A DNA stretch of 52,835 nt from positions 1 through 52,835 of the forward strand of contig JAMOOV010000061.1 in NCBI GenBank assembly GCA_027065125.1. The letters are read 5' to 3'. Below the pieces are notes generated by a model. The model did no database searches. It was not told where the DNA came from and worked only from the letters and a program-made list of their open reading frames with translations. Shown piece by piece: positions 21,653-28,398 of the stretch; within the stretch, counting starts at the first letter, position 1; the number at the start of each line of letters is the position of its first letter. Both the position numbers and the translations under genes were made by a program. This stretch comes from Campylobacterales bacterium. Lineage in GTDB: Bacteria > Campylobacterota > Campylobacteria > Campylobacterales > JALSKU01.

Positions 21653-21712
21653 CCAGCACTTGCAAAGTTTATATCAGGACTCTCTCAAAAGCCCTATTTT
21701 TTAGGAAAAACA

Positions 21713-23593
21713 TTGTTTATTTTTGATAAATTGTCTATGCTGTTTTTATTTTTGATAATGCTTGGAGTGATTCCAAATCTTTTCTACTCTTTTGGATATC
21801 TCTCTCATATCAAGAAAAAAAGATACTACATTTTGCACTATTTTGCTTTTATCATCTCTATGGCGGGTGTTGTTGTAGCCGGAAATGCTCTATTGTTTCT
21901 TCTATTTTGGGAGTTGATGAGCTTAACCTCTTGGCAACTGATATTAACTAACATAGAGGGCAAATCCACCATAAAAGCTGCGAGATTTTACTTTTTTATG
22001 ACACATTTGGGCTTTGTTTTTTTACTGCTTTTTTTCTTGATAGTTAGCAATGGCAATTTAGAGTTAAATTTTGCTCAGATGAAAGAGATAGCCTCTCAAT
22101 TTCGATATCCTACCGTTTTATTTTTCTTTGTAGTTTTCGGATTATTGAGTAAAGCGGGTGCAGTGCCTATGCATGTTTGGTTGCCGTATGCCCACCCTTC
22201 CGCCCCGAGTCCCGTTTCGGCTCTTATGAGCGGAGTGATGTTGAAGGTTGCGATATATGCTCTTTTTAGATTTATGTTTGACATTTTGGGAGGTTGGCAG
22301 CTTGAATGGGGTGTCTTGATACTTATCATGGGTGCTTTATCAGCTTTGATAGGGGTTTTGTATGCTTTGAGCGAGCACGATATCAAAGCTCTTCTTGCCA
22401 ATCACTCCATAGAAAATATAGGTATTATTCTTATAGGTTTCGGGATGGGTATGATATTTTGGACTCTTCATCTTCCTAAACTCAGTGCTTTTGCCTTTAT
22501 AGCTTCACTTTTTCATACATTTAACCATATGAGTTTCAAATCTCTTCTTTTTATGGGTGCGGGGAGTGTGCTTTATCAGACGAATACAAAAAATATGGAA
22601 AAGTATGGCGGACTTATCAAAGCTATGCCTATAACGGCTTTTACTTTTTTGTTGGCTTCTATCAGCATATCGGCTCTGCCTCCTACAAACGGCTTTTTGA
22701 GCGAATGGATGATATTTCAATCACTTCTTGGCTCATCGGCTATAAGCGATATGTCCTTGAAACTCTCCATTCCTTTTTCAGTCTTTGCTCTGGCTCTTAC
22801 GGGAGGACTTGCGATAGCCTGTTTTGTAAAGGTTTTTGGTATAACTTTTTTGGGGCTTCATAGAAGTAGCAATGCAAAACATGCTACAAAGGTAAATATA
22901 TTGCAAAAAAGCGGTATGATTTTGATGAGTTTTGTTGTTGTCTCTTTGATGCTTTTTACTCCGTTTTTTATAAAGATTTTTGATGGGGCGATAGAACAAT
23001 CACTTCATATAAGCATATACAAGGAGATTTTTCCGACTATCTGGAATATCCACTCCATAAGCTATAATGGCGGAGTGGTTTCTCCTTTGATACTTTTGAT
23101 AGCTTTGATAGTTATAACCACTCTCTTGTATGTAGCTTATAAAGTAACGAATCCGAAAATAAGAATATTTCATACTTGGGCATGCGGATATAACACTTCT
23201 TCAAAAACACAATACTCCGCTACCGGATTTGCCGGACCTATTAGAAGATTTTTTACTTGGCTATATGATCCCAAGGAGCATTTTGATAAAAAGATATTGA
23301 AAGGACATAAGGCGAGATTTAGCGATGCAAGTTTTATCGTGCATGTTGAGCCTCTTTTTGAAAAAAGTTTGTATAGAAGTGTCGTTAAATTGACAAATAT
23401 GATAAGTTATTATGTTTACAGATTGGCTCATTTTGAGCAGAGTAGATATGCGGCTATGATATTTAATATGCTTCTTTTTGTTCTGTTTAGTTATAGGATT
23501 TTTGTGCATGAGTTCAGTTGGGCTACCTTGGCTTTAGAGTCTATTGTAATGGCAATAACCGTAAAAATTCTTCTTTTGGGAGATAGGAGATGA
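21713..23593 (+). CDS. HyfB-like antiporter-type membrane subunit of an energy-converting hydrogenase-related (Ehr) complex
   Basis: Polytopic protein of 626 residues homologous to hydrogenase-4 component B, NuoL and MrpA-type subunits. Proton-channel signatures are visible: the membrane glutamate in LLFWELMSLTSWQL, the motif GAVPMHVWLPYAHPSAPSPVSALMSGVMLKVA in pieces with its lysine, and FHTFNHMSFKSLLFMGAGS. The C-terminal quarter (TWACGYNTSSKTQYSATGFAGP) is typical of HyfB/HycC. The start is TTG at 21713 with AGGA six bases upstream; no ATG gives a complete first helix. It probably carries proton or sodium translocation. It overlaps the next gene by four bases. Confidence 0.9.
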   Translation: MFIFDKLSMLFLFLIMLGVIPNLFYSFGYLSHIKKKRYYILHYFAFIISMAGVVVAGNALLFLLFWELMSLTSWQLILTNIEGKSTIKAARFYFFMTHLGFVFLLLFFLIVSNGNLELNFAQMKEIASQFRYPTVLFFFVVFGLLSKAGAVPMHVWLPYAHPSAPSPVSALMSGVMLKVAIYALFRFMFDILGGWQLEWGVLILIMGALSALIGVLYALSEHDIKALLANHSIENIGIILIGFGMGMIFWTLHLPKLSAFAFIASLFHTFNHMSFKSLLFMGAGSVLYQTNTKNMEKYGGLIKAMPITAFTFLLASISISALPPTNGFLSEWMIFQSLLGSSAISDMSLKLSIPFSVFALALTGGLAIACFVKVFGITFLGLHRSSNAKHATKVNILQKSGMILMSFVVVSLMLFTPFFIKIFDGAIEQSLHISIYKEIFPTIWNIHSISYNGGVVSPLILLIALIVITTLLYVAYKVTNPKIRIFHTWACGYNTSSKTQYSATGFAGPIRRFFTWLYDPKEHFDKKILKGHKARFSDASFIVHVEPLFEKSLYRSVVKLTNMISYYVYRLAHFEQSRYAAMIFNMLLFVLFSYRIFVHEFSWATLALESIVMAITVKILLLGDRR

Positions 23594-24510
23594 TATTTTA
23601 TTTTATAAGTATATTTTCAATGATACTATTATCTCCTCTTTTGCTTAGTTTTATAAAGATGCTAAAGATGTTTTTGCTTTATAAAAGACCTATAAGTTTA
23701 TTGCAAGGATATAGAGATATTTTAAAGCTTTTAACAAAAGAGATAGTTATATCTAAAGAGTCAAGCTCTATAATAAAAATCGCACCTTTTTTGACTTTAT
23801 CGCCACTGCTACTTGTTCTGTTTTTTCTTCCGCCCATTGTAAAGGGAGAGTATTTTGTGGGGTTTGTGGATGCTTTTACGATAACCGGACTTATATCTTT
23901 ATCCACATTTTTTCTGATGCTCTTGGGGCTTGATAGTGCGAGTAGTTTCGGAGGACTCGGAAGCAGTAGAGAAGCTTTTATATCGGCACTTGTGGAGCCT
24001 GCAATGATACTTACTCTTTTTAGTGTCTCCATGATGGCAAATACTTTGGGACTCAACCAAGCAGGAGTAAATCTCTCAAGCCATTTTCCCATTAAACATA
24101 CGGCAAGTTTTATCTTTGCGGGTATTAGTTTTTTTATACTGCTTATGGCTGAAAACGGCAGGATACCTATTGACAATCCCGAAACCCATCTGGAACTTAC
24201 AATGGTGCATGAAGCTATGGTACTTGATATAAGCGGTTTTTATCTACTTCTTATAGAGTTGGCAAGTAGCATAAAATTTATGATTTTTGCCTCTTTGTTT
24301 GCATCTTTATTTATGCCTTTTGGATTAGAGCTTCCCGCCTTTTTGGGTGTCTTGGTATTTGTATTTAAGATATTTTTGATAGCTGCTTTGGTTGGGATAT
24401 TTGAAGTAAATACTGCAAAATTGAGGCTTTTTAAGGTGCCTAATTTATTGGGTATTGCGATAGTTTTCTCTTTTCTTTCGCTGATAACTTTTTATGTTTT
24501 GGGAGCTTAG
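23590..24510 (+). CDS. HyfC/NuoH-like membrane subunit of the Ehr complex
   Basis: Complex I subunit 1 family protein of 306 residues, homologous to HyfC, HycD and NuoH, the subunit that joins the soluble redox arm to the membrane arm. Conserved family segments include the cytoplasmic loop GYRDILKLLTKEIVI, LGGLGSSREAFISALVEPAMI, and NGRIPIDNPETHLELTMVHEAMVLD with its acidic residues. About eight hydrophobic helices are present. ATGA overlap with the upstream gene; the next gene begins directly after its stop. Confidence 0.92.
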   Translation: MIFYFISIFSMILLSPLLLSFIKMLKMFLLYKRPISLLQGYRDILKLLTKEIVISKESSSIIKIAPFLTLSPLLLVLFFLPPIVKGEYFVGFVDAFTITGLISLSTFFLMLLGLDSASSFGGLGSSREAFISALVEPAMILTLFSVSMMANTLGLNQAGVNLSSHFPIKHTASFIFAGISFFILLMAENGRIPIDNPETHLELTMVHEAMVLDISGFYLLLIELASSIKFMIFASLFASLFMPFGLELPAFLGVLVFVFKIFLIAALVGIFEVNTAKLRLFKVPNLLGIAIVFSFLSLITFYVLGA

Positions 24511-25104
24511 ATGACAAATTTATTGATAGGTCTGTTTTTGGCTACTCTTATTATCTCTTTATTTACAATGAGACTGTATAGATTGATACTTTGGTATTCG
24601 CTAAACTCTCTTGCTTTGGCTTTTTTAGCTCTTCATATAGGAAATGAGATAGGAGATAAAGCTATGGTAATTAGTGGGGTATTTACATTGCTGTTAAAAG
24701 CGATAGCGATACCCTATATCCTCAAAAGAATAAGCATTAGATTTAATCTCTTAAGAGATATCACACCGAATATCCCTATACACTACTCTATTATGCTTGT
24801 ACCGGCACTTTTGGTTTTTACATTTTATCTATCCGAGCCTATCACAAATATGATCTCATCCAATGCAAATTATGTGGCTGTTAGTATATCTTCACTTTTT
24901 TTATCTCTTTTGTTGATGATGGAGCATAAAAATATCGCTCCTAAGATTATAGGATTTTTGAGCATTGAAAATTCGCTTTTTCTTCTTGGGACTACCGCGA
25001 CAAGCGGTATGCCTATGCTTATCGAGCTTGGTATATTTTTTGATCTATTGATGGCGATAGTGGTGATCAATCTACTATTTGCCCATGAGGAGGCTACGGA
25101 GTGA
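24511..25104 (+). CDS. HyfE-like membrane subunit of the Ehr complex
   Basis: Membrane protein of 197 residues with six or so helices, resembling hydrogenase-4 component E, the NuoK/MrpC-related subunit with an N-terminal addition. Recognisable parts are WYSLNSLALAFLAL, KAIAIPYILKRI, and the end FLSIENSLFLLGTTATSGMPMLIELGIFFDLLMAIVV. These subunits line the ion path next to the antiporter-like proteins. It starts with the ATG directly after the HyfC-like stop and overlaps the HyfF-like gene by four bases (GTGA). Confidence 0.88.
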   Translation: MTNLLIGLFLATLIISLFTMRLYRLILWYSLNSLALAFLALHIGNEIGDKAMVISGVFTLLLKAIAIPYILKRISIRFNLLRDITPNIPIHYSIMLVPALLVFTFYLSEPITNMISSNANYVAVSISSLFLSLLLMMEHKNIAPKIIGFLSIENSLFLLGTTATSGMPMLIELGIFFDLLMAIVVINLLFAHEEATE

Positions 25105-26513
25105 TATATCTTTTGCTATTGCCCGCTGTTATTATGTTGGCTCTATCTTTTAGAAATATTGAAAAGATTAGATACATTTTGCCCATAACATCCTTTTTGA
25201 TACTTTTTCCATCTATAAAACTATTTTTTTTGCCAAAGCCGTATCATATATGGGGTGAGTATCTTGTTGCCGATAATTTAAGTGCCTATATCATGCTGGT
25301 CTCCTCGATAGTAGCCATATGTGTAACACTCTCTATAAGCACTATGGCTTTACATATCAAGATAAGCGACAAAGCGAATGCGAGATTTTATAGATTTTTT
25401 GCGATATTTTGGATAGGTTTGAGTATATCCATAGTGGCGAACAATATGGGTTTATATTGGATAGGTCTTGAGAGTGCAACTTTGAGTACAGTTTATATGA
25501 TAAAGACAAATCACACCTCTTTTGCCAGAAAAGAGGCTTGGAACTATATGATAGTGGGAGCTATTGCTATATCTCTTATCCTTTTTGGTATCATTTTGAT
25601 ATATGCAAGTGCCAAGCCGATACTTGGGGAAGATGCTATGAATTTTTCAGCACTTTTACTTCATGCAAAAGAGATAAAGGCTCCGTTTTTGTTTGAGATA
25701 GGTTTTGCGATCGCAGTTTTGGGAATGTTTATAAAGATGGGATTTTTTCCTATGAATTTATGGTTGGCAAATATAGAAAGAGCCTCTTTCTATCCGGTTG
25801 CCGCACTTTTTAGCGGTATTTTAGAGAGTGCCGTGATTATCGGTTTTTTTAGGTTTAGCAAAATTGCAGATGCAGTAAATCCTCTACATGTTTTTATTTT
25901 TGTCTTTATATATACGATTTTAACGATATTTATAGTCTCTTTTTTAATATATAGGGCAAAAGATTTTATGAGACTTTTTTCTCTTTCCGGTGTAGAACAT
26001 ATGGCTATCATAGCTCTTTTTTGGGCAAGTGGCGGAGTTTTTGCCGCACTTTTACACTTCGGGGCTCATGCTTTTTTAAAACCGGCTCTGTTTTTATCGA
26101 CGGGAGTATTGGAGTCAAATGGTCAATACAAAATAGCCGGTGCATTAAAGGGGTATAGAGGCATAAAAGGTAAAATTTTTTACTACTTAAGTGCTTTGTT
26201 TTTGCTCTCTATTATCTCCATACCGCCAAGTCCTATGTTTTTTTCCGAACTATACGGTTTTGGAGCTATGATAGATATGGCAAAAGAGAATAAACATCTT
26301 CTTTTGATGATAGGTGCTATCACCTTTTTGTTGCTGTTGCTCTCTGTTATATTTTACAAATTTGTCGAAATTTACCAATCTATGAAATATGAAGGAAAAG
26401 AGGAGAAAAAAGAGGTTTATGGTAATGAAGTATTGGCTCTTATTATTTTTGCTATCTCTTTGGCTCTTTTGCTGACTCCTTGGAGTTTTGAGTTTTTAAG
26501 GAGTTTATCATGA
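25101..26513 (+). CDS. HyfF-like antiporter-type membrane subunit of the Ehr complex
   Basis: Second antiporter-like subunit, 470 residues, resembling hydrogenase-4 component F and NuoM/N. Signatures are the helix LYWIGLESATLSTVYMI with its membrane glutamate, AVLGMFIKMGFFPMNLWLANIERASFYPVAALFSGILESA with the charged channel residues, and HFGAHAFLKPALFLSTGVLE. The start codon is GTG, overlapping the upstream stop; the end overlaps the large-subunit gene by four bases. With the HyfB-like subunit it gives the complex two antiporter-type units, suggesting more than one ion moved per turnover, which is inference. Confidence 0.9.
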   Translation: MIYLLLLPAVIMLALSFRNIEKIRYILPITSFLILFPSIKLFFLPKPYHIWGEYLVADNLSAYIMLVSSIVAICVTLSISTMALHIKISDKANARFYRFFAIFWIGLSISIVANNMGLYWIGLESATLSTVYMIKTNHTSFARKEAWNYMIVGAIAISLILFGIILIYASAKPILGEDAMNFSALLLHAKEIKAPFLFEIGFAIAVLGMFIKMGFFPMNLWLANIERASFYPVAALFSGILESAVIIGFFRFSKIADAVNPLHVFIFVFIYTILTIFIVSFLIYRAKDFMRLFSLSGVEHMAIIALFWASGGVFAALLHFGAHAFLKPALFLSTGVLESNGQYKIAGALKGYRGIKGKIFYYLSALFLLSIISIPPSPMFFSELYGFGAMIDMAKENKHLLLMIGAITFLLLLLSVIFYKFVEIYQSMKYEGKEEKKEVYGNEVLALIIFAISLALLLTPWSFEFLRSLS

Positions 26514-27880
26514 GAGATAGACTTATAGCGAGGTTTGGCATAGAAAATAGTGACAACTTTGAAGTTTTGACGATTTTTGATAAAAAAATAGATAGAGAGA
26601 TTTTAGATAAAAACAATCCCATTTTAGACTCTCTATCATCAAAGTATTCAACCGCCGTTTGGTTTGAAAGAAAGATGAGGGATGATTTCGGTATAGAGAT
26701 AAAGGGCAGTTTTGACAACAGACCTCTTTTGCGACACGAAAGATTTCCTGCTATCAATCCTTTAAGAAAAGATTTTGACGGCAAAAGAGTGGAGTTCGGT
26801 GATTTTAAACCGTATAAGTATGAAACCGTGAAGGGTGATGGGGTTTTTCAAGTTTCGGTTGGTCCTATTCATGCAGGTATCATTGAGCCTGGACATTTTC
26901 ACTTTTCCCAAAGCGGAGAGAGGATGCTACATCTTGAGGTGAGGCACTTTTACACATACAGAGGCATAGAAAAGTCTCTTGAGGGAAAAGATTGGTTTGA
27001 GTGCAAAAAAAGTATTGAGAGGATAAGCGGTAATGAGAGTATAGCTTATCAGATAGCATGGTTTGATATATTTACTCAAGCGACACAGCAGGAGTATCCT
27101 GTAGAGTTAAAAAAATACCACTGTATGCTTTTGGAGTTTGAGAGAGTTGCTCATCACTTGACGGATATCGGTTTTATCCCGAACGATGCCGGTTTTGGTG
27201 CCGCTTTGGCTTATGCCTCTATGATGGCTGAAGATGTAAGAGAGATGCTAAAAAAGATTTGCTCTCATAGATTTGGTTTCGAGGGAGTGGATTTTGAAGT
27301 CAAAGGTTATGATAAAGAGGCGGTTTTAAAGTTTGTAGATGAGTTGCAAGATAAAATTGAGTGGTTTGAGGATTGGATAGTGGATATCCCATCCTTGTGG
27401 GATAGATTTGATACTACCGGCATCTTAAGTAAAAAAAGAGCTTTAAAATACGGCACGGTAGGAGTAGTGGCAAGGGCAAGCGGAGTTGAGATAGATACGA
27501 GAAATAGTGAGTTTTATAAGAGCTTCGGATTTGCTTTACAAAGTGAAAAAAGCGGAGATGTTTCGGCAAGATTTAAACTTAGGATCAAAGAGATATACAA
27601 CTCCATAACTATGATAAGAAATTTTATAGGTGGTTTTGATGAGGTTGAAAAGATGGTTGATTTTAAGGATGGAGAGTATATGAGTTTTGTTGAAAGCTCC
27701 ATAGGCGAACTTTTTATGTATGTTAGATTTAAAGATAATCTTGTCGAGAGGTTTTATGTCAGAGATCCAAGTTTTATAAATTGGCAAAGTTTATATCTGA
27801 TGATGGAGAGAGATATTATAGCGGATTTTCCTCTCATCAATAAAAGTTGCGATCTTAGCTATGCAGGATGTGATCTATGA
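26510..27880 (+). CDS. NiFe-hydrogenase large-subunit homologue lacking the NiFe cysteines (Ehr large subunit, NuoCD-like)
   Basis: Homologue of HyfG/HycE and of complex I NuoC-NuoD, 456 residues. Residues 1-85 are a shortened NuoC-like domain (FERKMRDDFGIEI, LLRHERFP). The rest is the large-subunit fold (VGPIHAGIIEPGHFHF, YTYRGIEKSLEGKDW, LLEFERVAHHL, GTVGVVARASGVEIDTR). The L1 site, CGxC in hydrogenases, reads RISGNES at 171-177. The L2 site, DPCxxC, reads SCDLSYAGCDL at the C terminus, with Cys447 and Cys454 only and wrong spacing. There is also no C-terminal processing extension. It therefore cannot bind NiFe in the usual way and belongs with Ehr-type proteins between group 4 hydrogenases and complex I. 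Electron acceptor unknown; a quinone-like or other site is possible. Confidence 0.9.
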   Translation: MRDRLIARFGIENSDNFEVLTIFDKKIDREILDKNNPILDSLSSKYSTAVWFERKMRDDFGIEIKGSFDNRPLLRHERFPAINPLRKDFDGKRVEFGDFKPYKYETVKGDGVFQVSVGPIHAGIIEPGHFHFSQSGERMLHLEVRHFYTYRGIEKSLEGKDWFECKKSIERISGNESIAYQIAWFDIFTQATQQEYPVELKKYHCMLLEFERVAHHLTDIGFIPNDAGFGAALAYASMMAEDVREMLKKICSHRFGFEGVDFEVKGYDKEAVLKFVDELQDKIEWFEDWIVDIPSLWDRFDTTGILSKKRALKYGTVGVVARASGVEIDTRNSEFYKSFGFALQSEKSGDVSARFKLRIKEIYNSITMIRNFIGGFDEVEKMVDFKDGEYMSFVESSIGELFMYVRFKDNLVERFYVRDPSFINWQSLYLMMERDIIADFPLINKSCDLSYAGCDL

Positions 27881-28398
27881 TAAAGTTTTGGCAAAAGAGG
27901 ATAAAAAGCCCCTTGATGACGAGAGATATCCAAGTGGATGATGAATTGAAAGATTTAAGAGGCAGATTAAAAAATGAGATAAAAAAGAGGTTTGCCGGAA
28001 GTTTGTCTATCAGGATGGTGAGTGCCGGAAGTTGCAATGCATGTGAAGCCGAATGTAATGCTCTTTCAAATCCCTACTACGATCTTGAGAGGCTTGGTAT
28101 CCGTTTTGTAGCAAGTCCCAGACATGCCGATGTCATGCTTCTTAGCGGAGTTGTGGGAGTCAATATGTATCATCATGTATTGGATGCTTATAAGCAGATG
28201 CCAAAGCCCTCTTTTGTTATAACTCTTGGAGATTGTCCCGTTTTGGAGGGAGCTTTTAAAGAGAGTTTTGCAGTTTTTGGAGCCGATAAGCTAAATATCC
28301 CCATAGATTATCATATAGAGGGTTGTCCTCCGACTCCAAAACAGATCATAAGGGGTTTTTTAGGGTTTTTAAAGTCTATATCAATCCCCGAAAAATAG
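27877..28398 (+). CDS. NuoB/HyfI-like iron-sulfur small subunit of the Ehr complex
   Basis: Small subunit of 173 residues that carries the proximal [4Fe-4S] cluster (complex I N2). Cluster ligands appear intact: Cys53 and Cys56 in SCNACEAEC, Cys120 in GDCPVLEG, and Cys150 in GCPPTP. The Cx2C spacing is that of hydrogenases rather than the tandem CC of NuoB. The complex can therefore still carry electrons to the large subunit although NiFe ligands are missing there. No NuoI/HyfH-type or HyfA-type ferredoxin gene follows. The end overlaps the convergent methyltransferase gene by 18 bases. Confidence 0.92.
   Translation: MIKFWQKRIKSPLMTRDIQVDDELKDLRGRLKNEIKKRFAGSLSIRMVSAGSCNACEAECNALSNPYYDLERLGIRFVASPRHADVMLLSGVVGVNMYHHVLDAYKQMPKPSFVITLGDCPVLEGAFKESFAVFGADKLNIPIDYHIEGCPPTPKQIIRGFLGFLKSISIPEK

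Follow-up and report, generated by a model that had tools for sequence, protein, structure and literature searches.

An operon at positions 21713-28398 of contig JAMOOV010000061.1 (Campylobacterales bacterium, assembly GCA_027065125.1), whose entire 52,835 nucleotides are called the window below, encodes an energy-converting hydrogenase-related (Ehr) complex, EhrABCDLS, a member of the complex I superfamily in which all four cysteines of the NiFe site are replaced. We consider the chances about even that this complex is a redox-linked, ion-translocating machine that a soluble carrier feeds through a single [4Fe-4S] cluster. The Ehr family is already known; the points that go beyond the original prediction, an earlier reading of the same DNA made without database searches, are the changes specific to the Campylobacterota clade and the relatives without an FeS cluster.

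The six genes lie on the + strand, overlap by four bases or abut, and code for HyfB-, HyfC-, HyfE-, HyfF-, HyfG- and HyfI-like proteins; the names ehrA, B, C, D, L and S were taken from the Geobacter nomenclature (Table 1). All six frames were open. Domain families (Proton_antipo_M twice, NADHdh, Complex1_30kDa plus 49kDa, and Oxidored_q6) and family models (hydrogenase-4 B, NuoH, HyfE, HyfF, NuoCD and NuoB) confirmed the subunit types that the original prediction had assigned to these open reading frames (ORFs). Orthologues with 55-64% identity were found in 17 of 60 relatives; Hyf, Coo and Nuo proteins came next only after a gap, at 27-30%, so the match was not due to chance.

Alignment with HycE of E. 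coli placed its NiFe ligands C241, C244, C531 and C534 at S173, E176, S450 and G453 of EhrL, confirming the earlier claim that RISGNES and SCDLSYAGC stand in place of the NiFe motifs; neither the CGxC nor the CxxC ligand motif of group 4 [NiFe] hydrogenases was found in EhrL. A shifted register, which would have spoken against this loss, was also checked, and no NiFe cysteines were found in one: C447 and C454 are not conserved and read F or N/S in orthologues. In 16 Campylobacterota orthologues, S173, S450 and G453 were invariant and E176 nearly so. Among 83 Ehr large subunits without NiFe cysteines (27 from Campylobacterota, 48 other Ehr, and 8 from the cluster-less complexes described below), Ser was found at 173 in 81, Ser at 450 in 82, and Gly at 453 in all 83. 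When Ehr was compared with its NiFe-bearing sisters, the sole columns that differed as a block were 173, 226, 450 and 453, plus 176, which varies. Because the Ni-ligand motifs are now invariant Ser/Gly motifs, and because the proton-donor glutamate and both pump arms are kept, this pattern indicates a former Ni-ligand site that was probably repurposed under selection and did not decay.

A decaying hydrogenase relic without function would also have lost the NiFe site, would fit the patchy occurrence of the operon (30 of 397 good Campylobacterota genomes), and would agree with a 2026 paper that called the Geobacter complex non-functional (PMC13194489). We find this hardly credible, given six open frames, 55-70% identity across families, invariant replaced motifs, and an ehrS that is kept even 5.5 kb away from ehrL.

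The window complex is predicted neither to make nor to use H2. HypD is needed for NiFe maturation. Two near-complete ehr carriers (G019 and G047) gave no HypD match, and dependence on Hyp maturation, a trait of group 4 [NiFe] hydrogenases, was accordingly not seen; HypD is present in the window's own genome.

Around the former metal site, Glu126 (HycE Glu193) was the same in all Ehr and sister sequences. All Campylobacterota copies retained H216 and E361, which correspond to the HycE relay residues H284 and E437 (PMC9474812), whereas R322 (HycE R395) was Arg or Lys. At the positions of Nqo4 H38 and Y87, the quinone-binding residues of complex I (PMC7684303), EhrL has I125 and G174. These correspondences come from alignments, not from structures. 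Since Glu126, H216 and E361 are kept while the Ni ligands and the His/Tyr pair are gone, the pocket is, as far as alignments tell, one of hydrogenase-like proton handling without metal and without the quinone pair. An AlphaFold model of EhrL (33-sequence alignment; mean predicted local distance difference test score 89.9, predicted template-modelling score 0.91) had HycE of formate hydrogenlyase (FHL) as its best structural match (template-modelling score 0.91), with complex I large subunits next. Its only low-confidence part was segment 119-125, which is the beta1-beta2 coupling loop. A small complex I-type quinone reductase with ferredoxin as donor would suit the shared chamber fold and this second structural match; the replaced His/Tyr pair and the normal NuoD (C22) that the window's genome also has make it quite improbable.

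The original prediction expected an FeS cluster in EhrS from Cys53, Cys56, Cys120 and Cys150. This was borne out at the level of sequence, as the four cysteines and an additional C60 were invariant in the window and 15 orthologues (16/16) and in 12 more Campylobacterota loci; outside Campylobacterota, a single sequence (L109) had C60. In EhrS, the CxxC spacing is that of membrane-bound hydrogenase (MBH), and differs from the adjacent pair of complex I and from the shortened loop of the membrane-bound sulfane-sulfur reductase (MBS). MBH-like spacing is the criterion for full four-cysteine ligation (PMC7684303), and EhrS likely binds one four-cysteine [4Fe-4S] cluster. Because the Campylobacterota clade keeps five EhrS cysteines without exception, we prefer a redox-linked pump.

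MBS of Pyrococcus is likewise an ion-pumping complex that came from a group 4 hydrogenase and lost the NiFe site (PMC7684303), Ehr is present in Sulfurimonas- and Sulfurovum-related genomes, and many Campylobacterota metabolise sulfur. These points would suit an MBS-like enzyme whose ion pumping is coupled to the reduction of polysulfide by ferredoxin at the EhrS cluster. However, two of the four NiFe cysteines survive in MBS, which has no equivalent of the loop glutamate MbhL E21, ligates its cluster with three cysteines via the shortened loop, and carries MbsN and Mrp modules (PMC7684303), whereas EhrL has none of the four cysteines and has E126, the EhrS spacing is MBH-like, and MbsN and Mrp parts are absent from the window operon. 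An MBS-like reaction thus has a poor chance of being the right one.

The membrane arm retains the pump residues. E67, K147, K178 and E331 of EhrA and E124 and K212 of EhrD match the Glu/Lys pump residues of NuoL/M/N; gaps aside, they were invariant over the sampled bacteria and archaea except for one Asn at K178, being conserved in 74 EhrA sequences and nearly so in 89 EhrD sequences. EhrD E383 was Glu or Lys. In EhrB, E128, E136, E188, E202 and E208 of the acidic channel were kept, and the E-channel glutamate E201 of HycD was replaced by His200 throughout the clade, also in the NiFe sisters. K63, E153 and E172 of EhrC were invariant or near-invariant, and D178 was conserved. From these residues we infer that the Ehr membrane arm pumps ions.

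In the preferred redox-linked mechanism, a soluble low-potential carrier (ferredoxin or flavodoxin) would dock on EhrS at the HycF/MbhN site and exchange electrons with the cluster, and a small substrate would be converted at the repurposed EhrL chamber. The EhrL loop glutamate, the proton hand-over residue of hydrogenases, is kept without NiFe, and the mostly kept acidic channel of EhrB leads to the active-site chamber. Protonation changes in the beta1-beta2 loop would then be relayed via EhrB to EhrC, EhrD and EhrA, so that ions cross the membrane.

For the phylogenetic placement, a tree was built from the large subunit only with the NiFe columns removed; several loci were contigs of metagenome-assembled genomes (MAGs). 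All Ehr sequences without NiFe cysteines formed one clade (support 95/92) that included the window EhrL, in agreement with the Ehr class membership claimed by the original prediction. This clade stood beside NiFe-bearing hydrogenases sharing the operon, followed outward by Hyc/Hyf and Coo, and then by complex I. Because Ehr groups with NiFe-bearing hydrogenases and complex I lies beyond Hyc/Hyf and Coo, the NiFe loss in Ehr appears to be independent of that in complex I.

With one genome scanned per species, at least 582 relatives came up, and the best 80 of these, nearest to the window and found with two peptide patterns, were examined for gene order. A-B-C-D-L-S was nearly universal in the best 80 loci, from Nitrospira, Acidobacteria and Bradyrhizobium to methanogens and Nitrosotalea. 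Therefore, A-B-C-D-L-S with no ferredoxin encoded as a separate gene is the canonical Ehr layout, and the compact form without an electron-input module, which had been singled out as special, is the normal one in nearly all of these loci across many phyla. Ehr was reported in Geobacter, Nitrospira, ammonia-oxidising archaea, Margulisbacteria and the candidate phyla radiation (CPR) (PMC7894505, PMC10284858, PMC10432482, PMC7304191), and Geobacter has higher levels of Ehr proteins on formate (PMC7894505). We found no paper naming Ehr in Campylobacterota in a search of open-access literature, outside which the early Coppi 2005 and Marreiros 2013 papers fall. A survey of this phylum, proposed by the original prediction, found close orthologues in 30 of 397 high-quality genomes and in 15 of 68 genera, with no consistently linked donor.

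The Campylobacterota sequences formed a single clade with support 100/100, whose stem was very long at 2.23 changes per site. Hydrogenases and complex I have Arg or Lys at the canopy position (HycE R478; PMC9474812). This position was Ile or Leu in 27 of 27 Campylobacterota EhrL and Arg in each of the 65 sequences compared from other Ehr and the sisters, and a canopy Asp was found in Campylobacterota EhrL where other Ehr have Asn. All Campylobacterota copies of EhrA also lacked about 75 N-terminal residues (two helices) present in nearly all other EhrA, HyfB and NuoL/M/N. With the lost canopy Arg, the missing EhrA N-terminus and EhrS Cys60, the Campylobacterota Ehr is a distinct variant. A small upstream ORF as the source of the missing N-terminus was rejected, as the upstream genes are unrelated and may end 68 bases before ehrA.

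The small subunit varies stepwise among relatives. In the NiFe sisters it nearly always carries a fused ferredoxin domain, several Ehr without NiFe cysteines have a reduced form of that domain, and in about half of them, the window included, it consists of the ~170-residue core only. Two Ehr lineages lacked all four cluster cysteines, with pump residues and L intact. In the first (Methanoregula, Methanosarcina, Altiarchaeales and Dehalococcoidales MAGs), the cysteines were replaced by Asp, Thr/Ala, Asp and Asn, with Ser at the second position in Methanosarcina (judged by eye); in the second (three MAGs, two labelled Moraniibacteriota), by Thr/Ser, Glu, Gly and Asp/Asn. The cluster-less ehrS lies after ehrL in L065, L069, L072, L075 and L078 and before ehrA in L063, L094 and L098. 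The cluster-less EhrS had 1-2 cysteines in the whole protein, E126, S173, S450 and G453 were kept in these lineages, and the gene was the only Ehr-like small subunit at high score in the genomes concerned. No second NuoB-like match was found in the Moraniibacteriota-type genomes, no compensating conserved cysteine set was found in the other subunits of the cluster-less complexes, and no description of Ehr without FeS cysteines was found in open-access papers. The tree needs two separate losses of the presumed four-cysteine cluster. The comparison shows an apparent cofactor series from NiFe sisters with a fused ferredoxin domain, through one-cluster Ehr such as that of the window, which keeps all four cysteines and is thus not cofactor-free, to two cluster-less lineages.

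This series motivates a non-redox alternative, in which the core reaction would be acid-base or binding chemistry (e.g. of CO2/bicarbonate or another anion) coupled to proton motive force, with a structural or regulatory cluster. It draws on the independent retention of chamber and pump residues in both cluster-less lineages, on the lack of compensating cysteines, and on the Moraniibacteriota ehr genes that directly follow atpG-atpD-atpC. However, the strictly invariant four cluster cysteines and the fifth in the window's clade argue for a working cluster, and the cofactor-free lineages could have changed function, so we consider this alternative unlikely, if by no means negligible. To the same limited degree we entertain its wider form, that the conserved Ehr core needs no redox cofactor, having lost NiFe, ferredoxin clusters and then the last [4Fe-4S], and that the window's complex stands at the one-cluster stage of this series and acts as a device linked to the proton motive force, acid-base or anion-coupled, and not as a respiratory enzyme.

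Gene neighbourhoods bear on both readings. As had been claimed, no ferredoxin-like gene is encoded in the window operon, and none was conserved beside the operon in relatives. No constant flanking gene or linked electron donor was found in Campylobacterota. Divergently transcribed 2-oxoglutarate:ferredoxin oxidoreductase (Oor) genes adjoin ehr in two genomes, which counts for the redox-linked pump; a linked donor was rejected, since Oor or other oxidoreductase genes stand next to ehr in isolated cases and not in one family after another. Outside Campylobacterota, clustering of the neighbouring genes turned up regulators for the most part (response regulators, ArsR-like and XRE-like helix-turn-helix proteins) plus SulP anion transporter genes. 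Of 112 loci scanned, six, from four phyla, had a SulP gene near ehr (upstream in L051, L091, L102 and L120, downstream in L071, and 1.7 kb upstream in L089), five of them directly adjoining the operon on the same strand; about 0.1 would be expected by chance, a rough estimate of ours, given that the window's relatives have about one SulP gene per genome. TrkH and ClC genes stand beside several Campylobacterota ehr operons. These neighbours give no more than a hint at ion or pH homeostasis and count for the non-redox alternative, but SulP adjoins only one Campylobacterota copy (1/6).

Returning to the redox-linked pump, four points weigh against it. Two Ehr lineages without cluster cysteines keep the pump, so electron transfer would not be essential to the family. 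No donor gene is consistently linked to ehr, the canopy arginine is missing in exactly the Campylobacterota clade, and no biochemical data on any Ehr complex were found in the open-access literature searched.

The question matters since the coupling of electron flow to ion pumping underlies the physiology of complex I. If a widespread complex did have the whole pump, a repurposed site and, among some of its members, no metal cofactor, it would be a natural uncoupling of the two halves, and would make a long-standing question testable, namely what a complex I-like chamber does to drive the pump and whether electrons are needed. The Campylobacterota variant, alone without the canopy arginine, would provide a natural mutant series for this question.

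Compared with known systems, the window operon is closest to Ehr elsewhere (Geobacter GSU0739-45, Nitrospira, Nitrosotalea, CPR), with which it shares A-B-C-D-L-S, the lack of CxxC NiFe ligands, the four small-subunit cysteines, the GPIHAGIIEPGHF and NKSxxLSYxG motifs and one supported clade, although the Campylobacterota branch is ~35% identical to the rest. The NiFe sisters (Selenomonas, Bryobacterales, Myxococcales and Brocadia MAGs) share the operon order, a framework of GPIHAGIIEPGHF and NKSFELCYxC, and the membrane residues, but keep all four NiFe cysteines. E. coli FHL and hydrogenase 4 (HycE, HyfG) give the best sequence and structure match and have homologous membrane subunits; unlike them, the window Ehr lacks NiFe, HyfA/HyfH/FdhF and the C-terminal extension. 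No formate dehydrogenase or HyfA/HyfH-type ferredoxin subunit is in its operon, and true FHL operons of the order (L043-L045) differ. Complex I (NuoB/CD/H/L/N) shares fold and pump residues, whereas Ehr lacks the quinone-binding pair and the N-module and has CxxC instead of CC in the small subunit.

Table 1. Features of the ehr operon in the window.
Feature	Positions	Strand	Remark
ehrA putative ribosome-binding site, AGGA	21703..21706	+	Supports the TTG start
ehrA	21713..23593	+	626 aa, TTG start; HyfB/NuoL-type antiporter subunit with C-terminal ND3-like extension
ehrB	23590..24510	+	306 aa; HyfC/HycD/NuoH-type membrane anchor
ehrC	24511..25104	+	197 aa; HyfE-type membrane subunit
ehrD	25101..26513	+	470 aa; HyfF/NuoN-type antiporter subunit
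ehrL	26510..27880	+	456 aa; HyfG/NuoCD-type fused 30/49-kDa large subunit, without NiFe cysteines
ehrL Glu126 codon	26885..26887	+	HycE Glu193, beta1-beta2 loop proton donor; invariant
ehrL former L1 CGxC motif, now RISGNES	27020..27040	+	Residues 171-177; S173, G174 conserved
ehrL Ile398 codon	27701..27703	+	Canopy Arg position (HycE R478); Ile/Leu in Campylobacterota only
ehrL former L2 DPCxxC motif, now SCDLSYAGC	27845..27871	+	Residues 446-454; S450, G453 conserved
ehrS	27877..28398	+	173 aa; HyfI/HycG/NuoB-type small subunit, without fused ferredoxin domain
ehrS CNACEAEC	28033..28056	+	Residues 53-60; predicted cluster cysteines C53, C56 plus extra clade-typical C60
ehrS Cys120 codon	28234..28236	+	Predicted cluster ligand, from alignment
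ehrS Cys150 codon	28324..28326	+	Predicted cluster ligand (GCPP motif), from alignment

In the window, a divergent gene cluster lies upstream of the operon and methyltransferase-like and chemoreceptor genes lie downstream; neither is conserved with the operon elsewhere. EhrL ends two residues past SCDLSYAGC. The missing C-terminal extension was dropped as proof against NiFe, because a partly NiFe-like large subunit from a Desulfosporosinus MAG (L112:4376-5830) also ends right after its CxxC-type motif. In that protein (ERISGIC and NKSYELSYAC), the first Cys of each NiFe motif was replaced by Ser and the second was kept. It was placed among the NiFe sisters in the tree, and appears to be a separate half-way state of NiFe loss.

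Several loci differed in arrangement. In the three Moraniibacteriota-type MAGs (L063:382-10314, L094:1-10314 and L098:639-10422), the cofactor-free ehr order was S-A-B-D-L, with B long as if fused to C. ATP-synthase genes directly preceded ehr in these genomes, atpD (beta)-atpC (epsilon) in 3/3 and atpG (gamma) seen in two. Two tandem ehrA copies per operon were found in L027, L051 and L144, comparable to the EhrA-1/EhrA-2 pair of Geobacter. L026:10604-16010 had a 5.5 kb insertion between ehrL and an intact ehrS. One genome (G356, L136:3233-19275) had two adjacent Ehr operons, one of Campylobacterota type, whose ehrS is located beyond the second operon, and one ~35% identical and resembling those of other phyla, which suggests lateral transfer. 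Finally, a genome of the window's genus (G003, L042:4311-11846) carried a second type of complex without NiFe cysteines, ordered B-C-D-L-S-A, with a flavoprotein dehydrogenase-like gene 0.5 kb upstream of it in the same orientation. Its L subunit (527 aa; ERTAGTTAF and LATLGLSVAENDK) was very divergent, with a branch of 2.71.

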